Below, piece after piece: positions 1,097 to 7,278 of a DNA stretch of 64,000 nucleotides. The notes under the pieces are model-generated. The model did not search any database. It worked only from the letters and a program-made list of their open reading frames with translations, and was not told the DNA's origin. The position numbers and the translations under genes were made by a program. Within the stretch, counting starts at the first letter, position 1. Each line of letters begins with the position of its first letter. Source of the DNA: Fundidesulfovibrio magnetotacticus (lineage in GTDB: Bacteria; Desulfobacterota; Desulfovibrionia; Desulfovibrionales; Desulfovibrionaceae); contig NZ_BLTE01000001.1 of the NCBI RefSeq assembly GCF_013019105.1, forward strand, positions 248,001 through 312,000. The letters are read 5' to 3'.

Positions 1097-1555
1097 CTAC
1101 GTGAACATGTTGATGGCGCACGTGTCGGCCAGCTTCAGGTACTGCTCGGCGTTCATCACTTCGACGCCGTCGATCAGGTCTTCTTTGCCGAGCTTCATCA
1201 TGTCCAGCGTCATGCGGCAGGCGATGAGCCTCACCCCCTCCAGTTGCGCCGTCTCCTGAAGCTCCGGCAGGTCCGGGATGCCCGCCTGGGCGATCTGGCG
1301 CTTCATCATCCAGCTGGCCAGGCGGGACATCCCCGGGATCGCCCCCAGGAAGCCCGGCGGATGGAACAGGAACTTCCCCAACTGTCCCTTGCGCACGGCG
1401 TTGATGCCCATAAACGTATGGAACACGAAGGCCTCGTGTCCCAGCCTGCGCGCGTTGATGGAGAGGATCAGGGCAGGATAGGCCCCGTCCAGGGTGCCCC
1501 GGGAACAGATGAAGGCGTAGCGCTGGCTTCCACCAGCTTCGGGCTTCGATTCCAT
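1097..1555 (-). CDS. DsrE/DsrF-like family protein
   Basis: 152-residue soluble protein of the DsrE-like fold (DrsE_2 type, as found in peroxiredoxin-like and sulfur-relay proteins). It has an N-terminal beta strand with YAFICSRGTLDGAYPAL, then a segment with FHTFMGINA, and a conserved cysteine in LIACRMTLDMM, which in this family is the candidate persulfide-carrying residue. It follows the octahaem cytochrome gene on the same strand after 77 nt, so it is probably the last gene of that operon. DsrE proteins handle sulfane sulfur in sulfur-oxidising and -reducing bacteria; a role in handling sulfur or selenium for the upstream reductase is inference. The substrate cannot be told from sequence. 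Confidence 0.85.
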   Translation of the reverse strand: MESKPEAGGSQRYAFICSRGTLDGAYPALILSINARRLGHEAFVFHTFMGINAVRKGQLGKFLFHPPGFLGAIPGMSRLASWMMKRQIAQAGIPDLPELQETAQLEGVRLIACRMTLDMMKLGKEDLIDGVEVMNAEQYLKLADTCAINMFT

Positions 1556-1632: not shown

Positions 1633-4137
1633 TCACCCCCGGCGCTTCGATTCCAGCTCCCTGTTCCATTCGCTGTGATGCATCCTGGCCCAGGCGCGGC
1701 TCACTTTGCCGTCCACCAGGGTGCGCCACGTGCCCGGGTTGCCGATGGTGCCCAGGTAGGCGTGCGCCAGCGCGCAGGCCACGAAGAGCACCCCGCCAAC
1801 GCCGTGCAGCGTGGAAAGCCACAGGTTCAGGGTCGCCGGGAGCGACTCCTTCCAGATGAGCGGCAGGCCCGTTCCGGCCATGAGCGCCGTGAGCGCCAGG
1901 GTGAGCCAGAAGAAGACCTTCTGCCCCGCGTTGAGCCGCCCGGCCGGGACGTGCCCCTCATCGCCCTCGTGGCCGCCCAGGTAGCCGCCGTTCTTGGAGA
2001 ACCACTCTCTGTCATAGGGTTTGAAGGCCGCGTCCCTGGCCCAGAGGAGCGCCGAGGCGGCCCCTGCCAGCGTGAACACGATCCCTGCCGCCCAGTGCCA
2101 CACCGAGGCCGCGTGGTAGGAGCCGAACACGGCCTTGGCCAGGGTGGCGTTGTTCACGAAGAACACGTAGCCCGTGGCCGCCAGCACCGCGAAGGAGAGC
2201 ATGCGCGCCAGGTGGGTCCAGCGCTCGGCCAGGCTGAACCGCACGATCTCGCCGGGCTCGAAGCGCGCGTCCAGCCCTTTGGGACCCTGCCCCGTGTAGT
2301 GCAGAGTGAGCAGGAAGGCCACCAGCAGGATCGCCCAGCTGCCGTAGGGCACGATGGCCGCCTGGTAGACGTTGTAGGCCGTCACGGCGCCGTGGCTGAT
2401 GCCCAGCAGGCTCGCGTTGGTCGCGGTGCGGGGCTTGCCGTCCGGGCCGAACATGTCCGTGACCTTGCGGCCCGCGAAGACGTTGCCCGTCTCGGAGTGG
2501 CAGTCGCGGCAGCCGCCCGCGCCCAGGGCCAGCTTGGCCGGGGCCACGTTGTGGTTGATGTTGAAGCCCTCGCCGTGGCCCACCCAGGTGTCGTCCTGGC
2601 GGGTGGCCACCAGTCCGCCCGCGTCCAGCACGTGGATCTCGCCGCCCTTGTGGTAGGCGGGCGACACGGCCTTGAAGCGCTGGTTGCCCTTGAGGGCCTC
2701 CGCCACGGCCAGGAGCATGGCCTTGATGTCCTCGGGGGTGTGCAGTTCCGGCTTGTTGGGGTTCTTCACGTCCTTGATGCGCGTTTTGGCGATCTCCCAG
2801 GCCTTTTGCAGCTCGCGCATGAAGAGCGGATGGTATGCGCCGTCGGCGTCGCGGTTGGTCCAGGTGACCACCAGAAGCGGGTTCACCGGGGCAAGCTGAC
2901 CACGCTTGAGCACCTCGATGCGGGGCTCCCACTTGAACTCCGCGCCCATGCCCTTGGATCCGATCTTGGAATAGTTGACCATCTGGCCCGTGGTGACGTC
3001 GAAGCCTTCGCCGCCCGCGCGGTTCAGCGCCGGGATGTGGCAGGCCTCGCAGGCCAACTTCTCCAGGTGGCTGGGGCGCACGCCCGAGTGCGCGGGGCGC
3101 GGCGCGCCCATGGTCCCGGTGGTGTGGCAGTCGGCGCACTTCTTCATGGTGTTGTCCAGGTCGTCGCGCACGGTGGAGACGTTTTCCTGGCCCTTGGCGA
3201 AGTTGTGCTTGATGTCCCCGGGGTGGCAACTCACGCAGGACATGCCGCGCATGTTGTGCACGTCATGGTTCACGGGATCGTTCCAGGAGAAGCCGCGCTT
3301 CTTCATGTCGGACATGCCATGGCAGAACACGCAGTTCTCGCTGGGGGGCTGGTCGTTCAGGTCCAGGACCACCTTGCCGTCCTGGTTGAAGAGCCGCAGG
3401 TTGTAGGCCACCTGGGGCGTCTGGCCCTCGTCCACGAAGCCGGTCACCTGGGCCAGGCCCGAGGCGGCCGTGGCGGACCAGCGGAAGTTGAGCTTCTTGA
3501 GCTGCTTGTTGCGTTCCTTGAAGCTGTAGCCGGGCAGATGGCAGATGAAGCAGTCGGCCTCCACCACGCCGGTCTCGGTCCAGCGGCTCTTGAAGTAGTC
3601 GCCGTCCAGGGACTTGGCCAGTGAGGGGTCGCCCTTGAGACGCGCGTCGTAGCGCTGGCCGTCGCGGTCATATTCCAGCCCGCCGCCGCCCGGGTGGCAG
3701 CCGCCGCAGCCGGGCACGCCCAGGTTCTTCTCGTCCTTCTCGCCCGCTGCCGCGAACATGAAGGGGGTCATGTCGATCTGGTCGGGATTGTTGTTGTTCT
3801 TTTTCGCCAACTGGCGAAAGGAGGGCGGTCAGAACTTGCCCATCATGCCCGGGGAGAGCACCCAGGGCTTGTCCTTGGAGTAGTCGTCCCTGATCTGGTC
3901 CCACCCCTGCTGGAAGTGGTAGCCCTTGGTGATGGCCGCGTAGTCGTGGCAGCCCTGCGCGCCGCAGGTCTGGCGCGTGGAGACGGGCTTGTCCGCGTTC
4001 TGCCCGGTGACGGGGTTGATGACCGCCCCGTCCTCGGCGCGCAGGAAGAAGGGCGGACAGGCCTTGGACCTGGCCTGCGCCGCCTGGGTGAAGGCCAACA
4101 GCATGAGGACCGCCGCGAGAATCCTTGCCGGGTGCAT
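1633..4137 (-). CDS. Octahaem cytochrome c / cytochrome b fusion, probable selenoprotein (UGA at 3829-3831 read as Sec)
   Basis: Read through one in-frame UGA, this is an 834-residue protein. Residues 1-22 are a signal peptide. A CX4CH haem site (CGAQGCH, 58-64) and seven CXXCH sites (near 144, 195, 268, 300, 333, 362, 542) give eight c-type haems. From about residue 600 there are several membrane spans of a cytochrome b561/FdnI-like domain. Residue 103 is the UGA (GKF-U-PPSFRQ). The frame stays open on both sides, the UGA splits the haem domain, and the downstream ORF has neither a signal peptide nor an RBS (its first possible start is TTG at 3810). A 7-bp hairpin with AGUU loop starts 9 nt after the UGA (see the SECIS entry). 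The haem part resembles octahaem tetrathionate-reductase-type cytochromes. From memory, the split two-part layout matches the ExtKL (seleno)protein family of Geobacter. A good RBS (CAGGAGGTAGTC) precedes ATG 4137. The likely role is periplasmic reduction of an unknown oxyanion, fed from quinol through the haem b domain. If not a selenoprotein, it is a broken gene. Confidence 0.83.
3802..3819 (-). promoter_or_regulatory. Candidate bacterial SECIS element downstream of UGA
   Basis: On the minus strand, arms TTTCGCC (3819-3813) and GGCGAAA (3808-3802) form a perfect 7-bp stem with loop AGTT (3812-3809). The loop begins 17 nt after the UGA and has G as its second base. Bacterial SECIS rules ask for a stem-loop immediately 3' of the UGA, an apical loop about 16-37 nt away, and a G in the first two loop positions; all are met. 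The hairpin lies inside the coding frame, as bacterial SECIS elements must. Confidence 0.75.
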
Positions 4138-4139
4138 GA

Positions 4140-4604
4140 CTACCTCCTGTTTGTCCTGGATCGACGGTTGAACACCATTGCCAGTGCCGCGATGCCGAGC
4201 GCCATGGCCGCGCCCAGGTGTGTCCAGTCCAGGAGCATGGCCGCCAGGGGGGACAGGCTCACGCCGGGAAGGTTGGAGAGCACGTGCGCCCCGCCCGTGA
4301 GGGCCAGCAGGCCCAGGAGCGCCAGACGCCCCCGGCCCAGGGAGGCCGCTCCCCGGGCGGCCAGCCGCCAGCCCAGCCAGAAGAGCAGCGCGGCGGCCGC
4401 CGCGTAGTGCAGGGCGTGGGTGAAGAGGAAATCGCCGGTCCAGGCCATGCCGGGGATGTCTGCGATGTAGTAGCGCTTGAAGATGGGCATCTGGGCGACG
4501 CCCGAAACGGCCAGGGCCGCCGCCGCGAGGCGGTAGAAGCCCAGGCGGACGGTCCCGGCGGCGGAGGAAGCGACGAAGCTCCCGGAAAGACGGCGGTCAG
4601 CCAT
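4140..4604 (-). CDS. Small four-helix membrane protein, cytochrome b-like subunit
   Basis: 154-residue integral membrane protein with four hydrophobic segments (near 22-40, 60-82, 90-110, 122-145). Histidines H64 and H67 in FTHALHY and one in DWTHL are candidate haem b or quinone-site ligands. It overlaps the upstream Fe-S gene by 8 nt and ends 2 nt before the octahaem cytochrome gene, so the three are translationally coupled. The set of Tat Fe-S subunit, small membrane subunit and multihaem cytochrome resembles membrane redox modules that pass electrons between quinol and a periplasmic reductase. I do not recognise a named family with certainty; it is most like the b-type membrane subunit of the Ext-type selenite/tellurite-reduction gene sets. 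Confidence 0.75.
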   Translation of the reverse strand: MADRRLSGSFVASSAAGTVRLGFYRLAAAALAVSGVAQMPIFKRYYIADIPGMAWTGDFLFTHALHYAAAAALLFWLGWRLAARGAASLGRGRLALLGLLALTGGAHVLSNLPGVSLSPLAAMLLDWTHLGAAMALGIAALAMVFNRRSRTNRR

Positions 4605-5574
4605 TGGAATCCTCCTTGCGGCCCATCATCTTGCGCGCTCCGGAGAGCAGCGCCCCGGCGGCCCCGGCCAGGGGGGCCAGAAGCACGGCCCAGGCCAGGC
4701 GGTTGGACGTGCCCATCACGTCGGCCACGGCGGCCAGCCCGGGCTGTCCGGGGCCGGTCTTCACGGCGGCGGCGAGCTTCTCGAAGGGCACGGGCGAGAG
4801 ATAGAGGGTGTTGGTTCCGCCGTTCTCCTCCAGGCCGTAGAGGAATCCGCCGTTGTTGCGGGCCATGGCCTTGGCCTGGGCCACGATCTCCTCGCGCGGG
4901 CCCATGGTCTGCACGCCCTGGGGGCAGGCCTCGATGCAGGCGGGCATCTTGCCCTGGGCCACTCGCTCGGGGCAGCGGCGGCACTTGTTCATCACCCCGT
5001 TGCCCGCCAGGGAGGGCATCAGGTCCAGGTAGAGGCCCGCGCCGGTCTGGCGCTGGGGGATGGACCAGGGGCACACGTCGCGGCACTTGGCCCCACCCAG
5101 GCAGATGTCCTGATTGATGGCCACCGTGCCGTCGGCCTCCCGGGCGGCGGCGCCCCAGGGGCAGAGGTTGGCGCAGGGCGGGTTCTGGCAGTGCATGCAG
5201 CGCCGGGGGATGTGCACCTCGCGGCCGTCCACCGCGGCGCTCTGGATGAAGAGCCAGTTGTAGGGCGTGAGGCGCGTGTCCACCGCGCGCTTGTCCGACC
5301 AGTCCTCCACCTTGACGCGCTCGGGGTACATCTTGGGGAAAGGCTTTTTCGGCTCGGGGTAGCGCGCCGCGTTCTCGACGCGGCAGGCCTCCACGCAGGC
5401 CCCGCAGCCGATGCATTTGGAGAGGTCCAGGAAGGTGGCCAGTTCCTGGCCGGTTACGGGAAGGGCCGCGGCGCGCGAACGCTCCGGCAGGAGCGCGGCC
5501 GCGCCGCCCAGGCCCAGAGCCTTGAACAGCGTCCGCCGGGAGAAGCGGGCTTTGGGGTCGATGGTTTTGAGCAT
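4597..5574 (-). CDS. Tat-exported four-cluster ferredoxin-like subunit
   Basis: 325 residues from ATG 5574. The twin-arginine motif FSRRTLFKALG lies at about residues 11-21, followed by a hydrophobic stretch and AAA, so it is exported folded. Four cysteine groups (CIGCGACVEAC; CMHCQNPPCANLCP; CLGGAKCRDVCP; CRRC...CIEACP) are those of HybA/NrfC/DmsB-type electron-transfer subunits carrying four [4Fe-4S] clusters. A C-terminal hydrophobic segment (about 286-307) probably anchors it to the outer face of the membrane. It is the first gene of the cytochrome operon and would pass electrons between the membrane b-haem proteins and the octahaem domain. The start is unsure: TTG 5601 is also in frame (334 aa), neither start has a clear RBS, and the candidate sigma54 promoter covers 5585-5600. 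Confidence 0.87.
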   Translation of the reverse strand: MLKTIDPKARFSRRTLFKALGLGGAAALLPERSRAAALPVTGQELATFLDLSKCIGCGACVEACRVENAARYPEPKKPFPKMYPERVKVEDWSDKRAVDTRLTPYNWLFIQSAAVDGREVHIPRRCMHCQNPPCANLCPWGAAAREADGTVAINQDICLGGAKCRDVCPWSIPQRQTGAGLYLDLMPSLAGNGVMNKCRRCPERVAQGKMPACIEACPQGVQTMGPREEIVAQAKAMARNNGGFLYGLEENGGTNTLYLSPVPFEKLAAAVKTGPGQPGLAAVADVMGTSNRLAWAVLLAPLAGAAGALLSGARKMMGRKEDSNG

Positions 5575-5584
5575 GACCCGGGAA

Positions 5585-5600
5585 AGCACGGGGCGTGCCA
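5585..5600 (-). promoter_or_regulatory. Candidate sigma54 (-24/-12) promoter of the selenocytochrome operon
   Basis: The minus strand reads TGGCACGCCCCGTGCT, one mismatch (position 12) from the consensus TGGCAC-N5-TTGCW with correct GG-GC spacing. A sigma54 activator is encoded divergently at 5716. The predicted start of transcription, near 5574, falls on the ATG chosen for the Fe-S gene. That would make the mRNA nearly leaderless, a reason for caution. Confidence 0.45.
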
Positions 5601-5611
5601 ACCTACAACAC

Positions 5612-5715: not shown

Positions 5716-7278
5716 ATGGACGTGAGCGCCCACTGGCAGGACATCTGCCACGCCATCCAGGAAGGCGTCTTCCTGGTGGACCCCTCGGGGCGCATCGTCA
5801 TGGTCAACGAGGCCATGACGCGCCTCTCTGGCTACTCCCACGAGGAACTTGTGGGGCGCAGCTGCAAGCTCTTCGACTGCGACGCCTGCGAGACAAGCCG
5901 TCGCCAGGCCAAGGGGAGCTGGTGCCGTCTCTTCGACGGGCACCCGCCCCGGCCCAAGCGTTGCCTCATCGTGCGCAAGGACGGCCTGCGCATTCCGGTG
6001 TTCAAGAACCAGTCGGTGATCCGCGACTCTTCGGACCGGGTGATCGGCGCGGTGGAGACGGTCATGGACCTCTCGGACCTGGACCGCCTGGACCGCAAGG
6101 TGGAGGAACTCTCGCGGCTGCTGGACGAGCCGGGCTCCTTCCACGGCATGGTGGGCTCCTCGCCCGCCATGCGCAGGCTCTTCGACATCCTGCCCAAGGC
6201 GGCGCGCAGCGAGGCCCCGGTGCTCCTGCTGGGCGAATCGGGCACGGGCAAGGAGCTGGCCGCGCGGGCCATCCACGAACTGGGGCCGCGCGCCAGAGGG
6301 CCGTTCGTGCAGCTCAACTGTGCCGCGCTCAACGAATCGCTCCTGGAGAGCGAGCTTTTCGGCCACGCCCGGGGGGCCTTCACCGGCGCGCACCGCGCCC
6401 GGCGCGGACGGTTCGAGGAGGCCCACGGCGGCGACATCTTCCTGGACGAACTGGGCGACGCGCCCCTCTCCATCCAGGTGAAGCTCCTGCGCACCCTGGA
6501 GACCAAGACCATCGAACGCGTGGGCGAAAACCGCCCCGTGCCCGTGGACGTGCGGCTCATCGCCGCCACCCATCAGGACCTGCGCGGCCTCATCGCCCAG
6601 GGGCGCTTCCGCGAGGACTTCTTCTTCCGCGTGAACGTGCTGCCCATCGTGATGCCGACACTGCGCGAGCGCCTGGACGACCTGCCCGGGCTCGCGGCCC
6701 ACTTCCTGGCGCGCCACGCGGCCCGGTCGGGCGCGGGCCCGCTGTCGCTCACGCCCGAGGCCCTGCGCGTGCTGGCCTCCCACGCCTGGCCCGGCAACGT
6801 GCGCGAGCTCAAGCACGCCTTGGAATACGCCGCCGTGCTCTGCGAGGACGGGCGCATCGGCCCCGAGGACCTGCCGCCCGGCCTTGGAGGCCCAAGAGCC
6901 TCCGGTTGCCCGGACGCAACGCTCGCGGCGGGAACTCTCGCGCGGGAAACAGTCCCTCCGACCCGGGAGACCGCTCACCGTCCGGCGCAAGGCGTCCCCG
7001 CGCCCGGCTCGGCCCCGGCCCCCGGGGCCTGCCTAGCCTGCGGCCTCGCGCCTGGACGCGGCGCGCACCGGGAACAGGCGCTCGGCCCGCTCCTCGCCCC
7101 GCCCCCGACCGCGGCGAGCCTCCACGGCGACAGGGAACGCGACGAACTGGTGGAGGCCCTGCGCCAGGCGGACGGCAACAAGACCAGGGCCGCGAAACTT
7201 CTGGGCGTCACGCGGCTCACGGTGCACAACCGCATGCGCAAGCACGGGGTGGAATGCGCCCGCGTGGTTCGTTCTTGA
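5716..7278 (+). CDS. Sigma54-dependent transcriptional activator with PAS sensor
   Basis: 520 residues. An N-terminal PAS domain (about 8-125) carries five cysteines (50, 55, 58, 70, 83; the last four spaced CX2CX11CX12C). A central AAA+ domain (about 143-385) has Walker A GESGTGKE at 173-180 and GAFTGA at 220-225, the loop that contacts sigma54. A low-complexity linker (about 395-470) joins it to a Fis-type helix-turn-helix (about 489-512, AAKLLGVTRLTVHNRM). There is no receiver domain, so the signal is probably sensed directly by the PAS cysteines as a metal, Fe-S or redox signal (inference). It starts at ATG 5716 behind CGGAGG. It is divergent from the selenocytochrome operon, which it probably controls. 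A 7-bp hairpin lies just after the stop (7284-7301). Confidence 0.93.
   Translation: MDVSAHWQDICHAIQEGVFLVDPSGRIVMVNEAMTRLSGYSHEELVGRSCKLFDCDACETSRRQAKGSWCRLFDGHPPRPKRCLIVRKDGLRIPVFKNQSVIRDSSDRVIGAVETVMDLSDLDRLDRKVEELSRLLDEPGSFHGMVGSSPAMRRLFDILPKAARSEAPVLLLGESGTGKELAARAIHELGPRARGPFVQLNCAALNESLLESELFGHARGAFTGAHRARRGRFEEAHGGDIFLDELGDAPLSIQVKLLRTLETKTIERVGENRPVPVDVRLIAATHQDLRGLIAQGRFREDFFFRVNVLPIVMPTLRERLDDLPGLAAHFLARHAARSGAGPLSLTPEALRVLASHAWPGNVRELKHALEYAAVLCEDGRIGPEDLPPGLGGPRASGCPDATLAAGTLARETVPPTRETAHRPAQGVPAPGSAPAPGACLACGLAPGRGAHREQALGPLLAPPPTAASLHGDRERDELVEALRQADGNKTRAAKLLGVTRLTVHNRMRKHGVECARVVRS

Follow-up and report, generated by a model that had tools for sequence, protein, structure and literature searches.

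The window analysed here, a stretch of 64,000 nucleotides of the Fundidesulfovibrio magnetotacticus genome, contains on its minus strand (positions 1633 to 4137) a gene for an octahaem cytochrome c fused to a cytochrome b, and we predict with high confidence that the single internal UGA of this gene, at codon 103, is decoded as selenocysteine (Sec). Judged by its sequence, the protein appears to represent a new selenoprotein family within the multihaem cytochromes. As a whole, we read it as a menaquinone-linked oxidoreductase of sulfur compounds that carries Sec near an active-site haem, and we assign to this reading a probability of about 0.6. The frame, its conservation, the hairpin that follows the UGA, the selenium machinery of the genome and the slot of the gene in its operon were read directly from the DNA.

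The reading frame and the selenium machinery of the genome

When the UGA is read through, the minus-strand frame running from 4137 to 1633 specifies 834 residues and a stop, and translation revealed codon 103 (TGA, 3831-3829) and the terminal TGA at codon 835 as its only stop codons, confirming the claim of an initial annotation that a signal peptide and a first haem are in frame with the rest of the protein and are separated from it by the UGA and six further codons only. The start ATG at 4137 is preceded, at a distance of 5 nt, by a perfect AGGAGG ribosome-binding site (4143 to 4148, minus strand), and residues 1 to about 22 (4072 to 4137) are predicted to be an N-terminal signal peptide on account of their hydrophobic sequence and of a modelled helix at residues 3-22. 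Haem-binding motifs begin at eight places, residues 58 (CGAQGCH), 144, 196, 269, 301, 334, 363 and 543. The haem 1 motif (residues 58-64; 3946 to 3966) is of the CX4CH type, with C58, C63 and H64 present in 39/39 alignment rows, and the remaining seven are CXXCH, including that of haem 2 (residues 144-148; 3694 to 3708). The C-terminal cytochrome b domain (residues 633-807; 1717 to 2241) matches the cytochrome b561-type family PF01292 (E 4e-15) and, by Foldseek, the structure 1kqf_C (E 3.1e-8, TM 0.83 of the target). It thus shares fold and PF01292 with the FdnI-type cytochrome b, the gamma subunit of formate dehydrogenase N, but it is fused to an octahaem protein whereas FdnI stands alone.

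The mechanical start for a separate second part is a TTG at 3810, within the loop of the hairpin described below. No AGGAGG-like site was detected before this TTG and no signal peptide was found in the second half, as the initial annotation had maintained for both features. Homologues from the same genus are 77-80% identical across the whole alignment and have the same TGA, and within the genus selection is purifying on both sides of it, with dN/dS values of 0.14-0.21 upstream (76 codons) and 0.16-0.38 downstream (240 codons) in all four same-genus comparisons. Among the matches listed in a class-level search, five of the seven same-genus genomes own the gene, each with one TGA at the same site; the genus of the window's genome is also that of G195, whose copy is the one of Fundidesulfovibrio agrisoli. 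Gene callers that halt at the UGA will split such genes, so that one product lacks the signal peptide and the other has a single haem instead of eight.

The genome was checked for selA, selB, selC and selD, as the initial annotation had proposed, and all four are present: a tRNA-Sec (selC, 79.4 bits), SelA (587.6 bits), SelB (367.4 bits) and a selD with an in-frame TGA of its own. The same genome harbors two formate dehydrogenases (FdhA) with in-frame TGA. SelB was above the cut-off in 53 of the 57 genome records tested (of which G670 and G729 look like one genome) and in 29 of the 30 records with the UGA form, the exception being G051, a 43%-complete record with a split match. However, SelB was also found in 24 of the 27 records lacking the UGA form, and its presence was therefore rejected as a discriminator of that form.

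The UGA site and the hairpin among relatives

Residue 103 was compared in 92 loci, which are best matches drawn from three homologue searches with some genomes present twice, so that fractions among them are not natural frequencies. From the class-level search, which yielded 30 loci, L009-L015 were used and L016-L038 were left out as weak matches to other parts of the protein; from the second search the best matches alone became loci, the window's own copy (L048) was removed, and other stop-free matches lie outside the 92. In this best-match sample, the alignment of homologues by which the initial annotation had proposed to check its reading showed a read-through TGA in 47/92 loci (42 distinct stretches) and Cys in 16/92, and other loci carry Leu (11), Ser (8), Phe (3), Tyr (2), Gln (1), Ile (1) or a gap (1). 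Neither TAA nor TAG occurs at the site in the loci read among the 92, and no Trp codon was seen there in the loci read. One further locus, L123, has TGA and the same loop and stands outside the 47 counted, and L015 was left uncounted on account of a frame shift that immediately precedes the site in its record. The 26 of the 92 loci with Leu, Ser, Phe, Tyr, Gln or Ile are more distant relatives, so not every member of the wider family carries Sec.

In the tree, from which L127, L131 and short or identical rows were excluded, 13 of the 16 Cys loci group with the majority of the Sec forms in one clade. L118 and L121 sit in the Leu/Ser/Phe clade, and the excluded L127 is a distant sequence. A Cys clade formed by L092, L094 and L096 is nested within a Sec clade and keeps an intact hairpin with CAG-TTG codons, so that it reads as a recent change from Sec to Cys with a fossil SECIS. 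In a second Sec subfamily the initial tblastn alignment was off by one or more residues, and in a multiple alignment the UGA of L014, the one member of this subfamily tested, shares the column of the others. The Sec form was found in Thermodesulfobacteriota and, beyond them, in one record of the Bacillota, that of Ammonifex thiophilus, as well as in metagenome-assembled genomes labelled Chloroflexota and Aquificota.

Bacterial SECIS elements are hairpins located just 3' of the UGA, and their small apical loop has a G among its first bases. The initial annotation had noted a 7-bp stem with an AGUU loop just after the UGA, and a SECIS-like hairpin that fits this rule is indeed present at 3802 to 3819 of the minus strand (TTTCGCC-AGTT-GGCGAAA, loop at 3812-3809), 9 nt after the UGA, with a UGA-to-loop distance of 16 nt and a folding energy of -9.7 kcal/mol. 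The AGUU loop was found in all 46 UGA loci with enough sequence, notwithstanding a UGA-to-loop distance of 16 nt in 27 loci and of 22 nt in 19. The main register comprises 13 distinct hairpins, and when covariation was analyzed in these (the 6 of a shifted register being omitted), 90% of the cells were paired and 3 of the 7 pairs showed changes on both sides, a result equalled by 1 of 500 shuffles; sliding the partner by 1-3 columns made every measure drop. Since the loop falls on Gln-Leu codons, its conservation could be partly at the protein level. Nevertheless, among the rows that match a motif pattern (35 Sec and 13 non-Sec), the Leu codon of the hairpin was TTG in 34/35 Sec genes, against 4.4 expected from the codon usage of each gene itself, and in 3/10 non-Sec genes, against 1.4 expected, two of these three being L092 and L096.

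As to the folding of the mRNA 3' of the UGA, also suggested in the initial annotation as a check, the hairpin is conserved with compensatory changes, but the energy of the window's hairpin is not exceptional by itself (synonymous reshuffling, p = 0.07) and was rejected as evidence on its own. By the same reshuffling, p values of 0.05 or less were obtained for 12 of 40 Sec genes and 3 of 36 others. The case for a SECIS-like element is thus built on conservation among relatives and not on the energy of the window's copy. A scan of the window with Rfam at gathering scores gave no match.

If the UGA were a genuine stop, the region would hold two separate proteins or a pseudogene, as the terminal UGA of the same gene and the non-significant energy of the window's hairpin might suggest. 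We regard this explanation as most improbable, because selection is purifying on either side of the codon, synonymous codons are under constraint, the second part lacks both an AGGAGG-like site and a signal peptide, and 47 loci share the same UGA while 16 have Cys without a stop and none another stop codon. Hardly more credible is that the UGA is read as a different amino acid such as Trp, or that the loop is conserved at the protein level only. Gln-Leu-Ala at the hairpin is indeed a conserved protein motif as well, but TTG is nearly fixed although other Leu codons would serve, the nearest relatives devoid of UGA have Cys and none of the loci read has Trp, and tRNA-Sec, SelA, SelB and SelD are all encoded in the genome. 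Decoding as Sec is the preferred reading, and the initial suggestion of a probable selenoprotein is supported by the conserved UGA/Cys site, the hairpin and the sel genes.

Relation to known octahaem cytochromes and operon setting

No model of NCBIfam 20.0 reaches its cut-off for the protein, the scores being 38.5 bits against a cut-off of 375 for TIGR04315 (octahaem tetrathionate reductase, OTR), 53.1 against 250 for the MmcA-type model TIGR04314 and, in the comparison with the FdnI-type cytochrome b, 109.9 against 115.85 for TIGR01583. Membership in TIGR04315 was rejected on this score and a relation to it was retained. By profile, the best solved relative is 1sp3_A, the Shewanella octahaem tetrathionate reductase (SO4144; E 5.4e-8), and hhalign with the OTR family aligned haems 3-8 in order with a probability of 99.4%, the stretch from haem 1 through Sec to haem 2 not being covered. 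A Foldseek search with the model of the haem part retrieved no OTR structure (0 matches at E <= 0.001), and with the full model the one match at E <= 0.001 was a cytochrome b. The OTR relation is therefore favored by profile and finds no support in the fold search, and CXXCH repeats may inflate profile scores.

In the same hhalign alignment D277, K280 and G282 of the window's protein correspond to D150, K153 and G155 of OTR, the 1sp3 numbering of the residue matching Lys280 (3298 to 3300, minus strand) being taken from the profile alignment. We take Lys153 to be, by its number, the residue that replaces His as the haem-2 ligand of OTR, and the Cys near OTR haem 2 to be an active-site residue. 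Lys280 is present in 55/55 rows with Sec or Cys versus 4/24 other rows; their co-variation was rejected as a statistical test, since it amounts to 3 independent pairs and is not significant. Haem 2 of the window's protein would be, by order, the counterpart of the second haem of OTR, which PMC11024163 describes as catalytic and ligated by a conserved Lys. All 12 OTR-family members aligned have Cys or Sec after haem 1 and before haem 2, and the OTR-family genes of the phylum have Cys or an in-frame TGA in the motif N-F[U/C]...RCTSCH; 21 of the 58 OTR-family rows above the cut-off are listed with one TGA, the context of which was read in four. Both families accordingly place Sec or Cys between haems 1 and 2, and with respect to the order of haems the predicted Sec coincides with the Cys/Sec of the OTR family. 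By comparison with that family, it is plausible that selenium lies at or near the active site. The two families share eight haems and, in some OTR members, an in-frame UGA, but they differ in the Sec context (GKFUPPSFRQLA, 41 residues before haem 2, versus N-F[U/C]-N-RCTSCH, about 10 residues before it), in the hairpin sequences and in the fusion to a full cytochrome b seen in the window's protein.

The Sec gene is preceded by a gene for a 154-residue membrane protein (4140 to 4604, minus strand), which has no family match. L174 and L175, two loci from the family to which the window's genome belongs, encode proteins 41% identical to it in the corresponding slot. Before the membrane-protein gene lies a gene for a Tat-type Fe-S protein similar to HmcB/HybA (4597 to 5601, minus strand; NF045715 E 5e-38, below cut-off; PF12838, PF13247), in the position of OhcB and 59-64% identical to its counterparts in L174 and L175. 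Divergently oriented is a gene for a PAS/sigma-54 activator (5716 to 7278, plus strand; PF00158 E 3.6e-66), 54-55% identical to the divergent neighbour in both loci. This arrangement resembles that of the Ohc complex of Desulfovibrio, for which PMC4641369 reports a divergent sigma-54 activator (DVU3142) facing ohcBAC and, as the parts of the complex, an Fe-S protein, an octahaem cytochrome and a haem-b membrane protein. In the window the activator is found in place of DVU3142, but the octahaem protein belongs to another family, has a predicted Sec and is fused to cytochrome b. Both L174 and L175 have the same layout of activator, Fe-S and membrane partners, followed by a Cys-bearing OTR-type octahaem protein, so that in the window's genus the Sec protein occupies the slot of an OTR-type protein. 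L177 has an OTR-type gene with TGA, and the genes for its Fe-S and membrane proteins are found some 2 kb ahead of it. For the Sec form, these two partners were detected as neighbours in the window's genus only, and homologues of the activator occur in different arrangements near L081, L085 and L089. A sigma-54 promoter candidate, TGGCACGCCCCGTGC at 5600-5586 before the operon, has one mismatch and does not exceed chance, 5.4 such matches being expected in the window.

On the other side of the Sec gene, 77 nt downstream, a gene for a DsrE/DsrF-like protein, a probable sulfur carrier, was identified (1097 to 1555, minus strand; PF13686 E 1.2e-36). A DsrE-like gene of the window's type neighbours L011, and in one homologue search 4 of 22 Sec loci have a DsrE-like gene within 115 nt, of a DsrE family different from that of the window. 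Of 34 other loci of the same search, 14 are followed by a rhodanese gene at a distance of no more than 165 nt. By family, these DsrE and rhodanese neighbours are putative sulfane-sulfur carriers.

Proposed function and wider occurrence

We infer the insertion of Sec, the membrane topology, the active site, the substrate and the direction of electron flow as follows. The host SelABCD machinery would insert selenocysteine at UGA-103, directed by the hairpin just downstream, and a single protein would be made, exported and loaded with eight c-type haems. Its cytochrome b domain would anchor it and exchange electrons with menaquinone, and the Fe-S and membrane partners of the Ohc-type complex would work alongside the octahaem protein. 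Sec103, at or near a presumably catalytic haem 2, could act as a nucleophile on an inorganic sulfur compound and attack its S-S or S-O bond, the candidate substrates being tetrathionate, thiosulfate or a persulfide brought by DsrE-type carriers, and the resulting Se-S intermediate would then be released by electrons from the haem chain. Only tentatively do we extend this mechanism to an enzyme class defined by Sec103 positioned over, or even ligating, a Lys-bound or open haem 2, by the breaking or making of S-S bonds, by sulfur delivery through DsrE-type proteins and by a link to menaquinone through the fused cytochrome b. If true, the Sec proteins of the OTR family and the larger relatives with the G-WUPPS-RQ motif would form one broad selenium-haem enzyme class in anaerobes.

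Two other explanations, each of which we consider rather unlikely, concern the function. In one of them the protein does contain Sec but serves purely to conduct electrons, and Sec tunes, protects or ligates a haem without catalysis. Nearly all complete relatives with Leu, Ser or Phe at the site retain their eight haem motifs, which indicates that the haem chain works without Sec, and in PMC11024163 the related cytochrome MmcA is described as an electron conduit lacking haem 2 of OTR and its Lys. Against a conduit speak the company that Sec or Cys keeps with Lys280 and the fact that the OTR family, too, repeatedly has one of these two residues between its haems 1 and 2. Moreover, Sec is a costly amino acid, which also counts against a mere conduit. 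In the other explanation the substrate is selenite or tellurite, a nitrogen compound or an extracellular metal acceptor rather than a sulfur compound. PMC5877670 links ExtKL, for which Sec is likewise predicted, to a gene cluster for the reduction of selenite and tellurite, and nitrite and hydroxylamine are reported as further substrates of OTR (PMC11024163). The neighbouring DsrE and rhodanese genes speak for sulfane sulfur instead, an argument weakened by the rhodanese-like gene that PMC5877670 places in the ExtKL cluster too; on the other hand, ExtKL belongs to another family, and its Sec stands in other surroundings. The reading as an oxidoreductase of sulfur compounds is the one that we prefer.

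ExtKL of Geobacter (NF040886) is likewise a predicted Sec-containing multihaem c-type cytochrome according to PMC5877670, PMC1914089 and Table 1 of PMC13188914, but it is pentahaem by the description in PMC5877670, its open frames have 404-454 residues, and its Sec stands in a PDGU context. No match to NF040886 was obtained in the window's genome, nor for the protein itself at E <= 0.1, and membership in ExtKL was rejected on this ground and on the different Sec context. A May 2026 review of 119 families includes in its Table 1, as multihaem selenoproteins, ExtKL and a GenBank-annotated TIGR04315 protein, and that table has no entry that we could match to the present family (PMC13188914). In the open-licence papers on selenium and cytochromes that we consulted we recognised no description of this family, although an earlier description is possible. 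The present family would add a widespread selenoprotein to anaerobic respiration, and its natural Sec, Cys and Leu/Ser versions make the role of selenium in a multihaem enzyme a testable question.

Larger multihaem frames in other genomes, of 744-1407 codons from stop to stop, share a similar motif, G-WU[PS]P-RQ[LVM]A. At the eight such sites examined the loop letters are AGUU, AGGU or AGAU, and at one of them, with AGAU, the predicted fold differs from the present hairpin. Eight of these proteins were scanned, and none of them attains an NCBIfam cut-off. Judging by these larger frames, current lists probably understate how common multihaem cytochromes with Sec are.

Cysteine forms and the SECIS hairpin

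The cysteine versions of the octahaem cytochrome gene at loci L092, L094 and L096 were found to keep an intact AGUU hairpin together with the TTG codon in its loop, and in these three genes the hairpin reads as a fossil SECIS element left by a change from selenocysteine to cysteine. The source of L092 is labelled SeepSRB2. A rhodanese gene lies immediately 3' of the octahaem gene at 14 of 34 loci without a read-through UGA from a single homologue search (L102-L133).

In-frame UGA codons in other multihaem genes

Bigger multihaem frames of 744-1407 codons, from other genomes of the phylum (L134-L141), carry a selenocysteine motif resembling that of the window's protein (G-WUPPS-RQLA and variants), and most of them, although not all, have a similar hairpin. 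Two such genes stand near each other in L137 (G695), as they do in L140 (G473). None of the eight larger Sec-motif multihaem proteins scanned reached any NCBIfam cut-off. Among the 58 rows above the cut-off of the octahaem tetrathionate-reductase family (TIGR04315), 21 are listed with one TGA, and the sequence at the TGA was read for four of these 21. In these four genes (L162, L165, L166 and L170), the in-frame TGA occupies a position that is cysteine in other members, and a hairpin is predicted near each.

Selenium genes

The selD gene of the window's genome (L172, G000:C20:15421-16341) has one in-frame TGA and probably encodes a selenoprotein itself. In the record of one relative, L015 (G051), a frame shift immediately ahead of the position matching the window's UGA accounts for the splitting of the cytochrome gene in the assembly, and SelB is likewise in two pieces in the same record.
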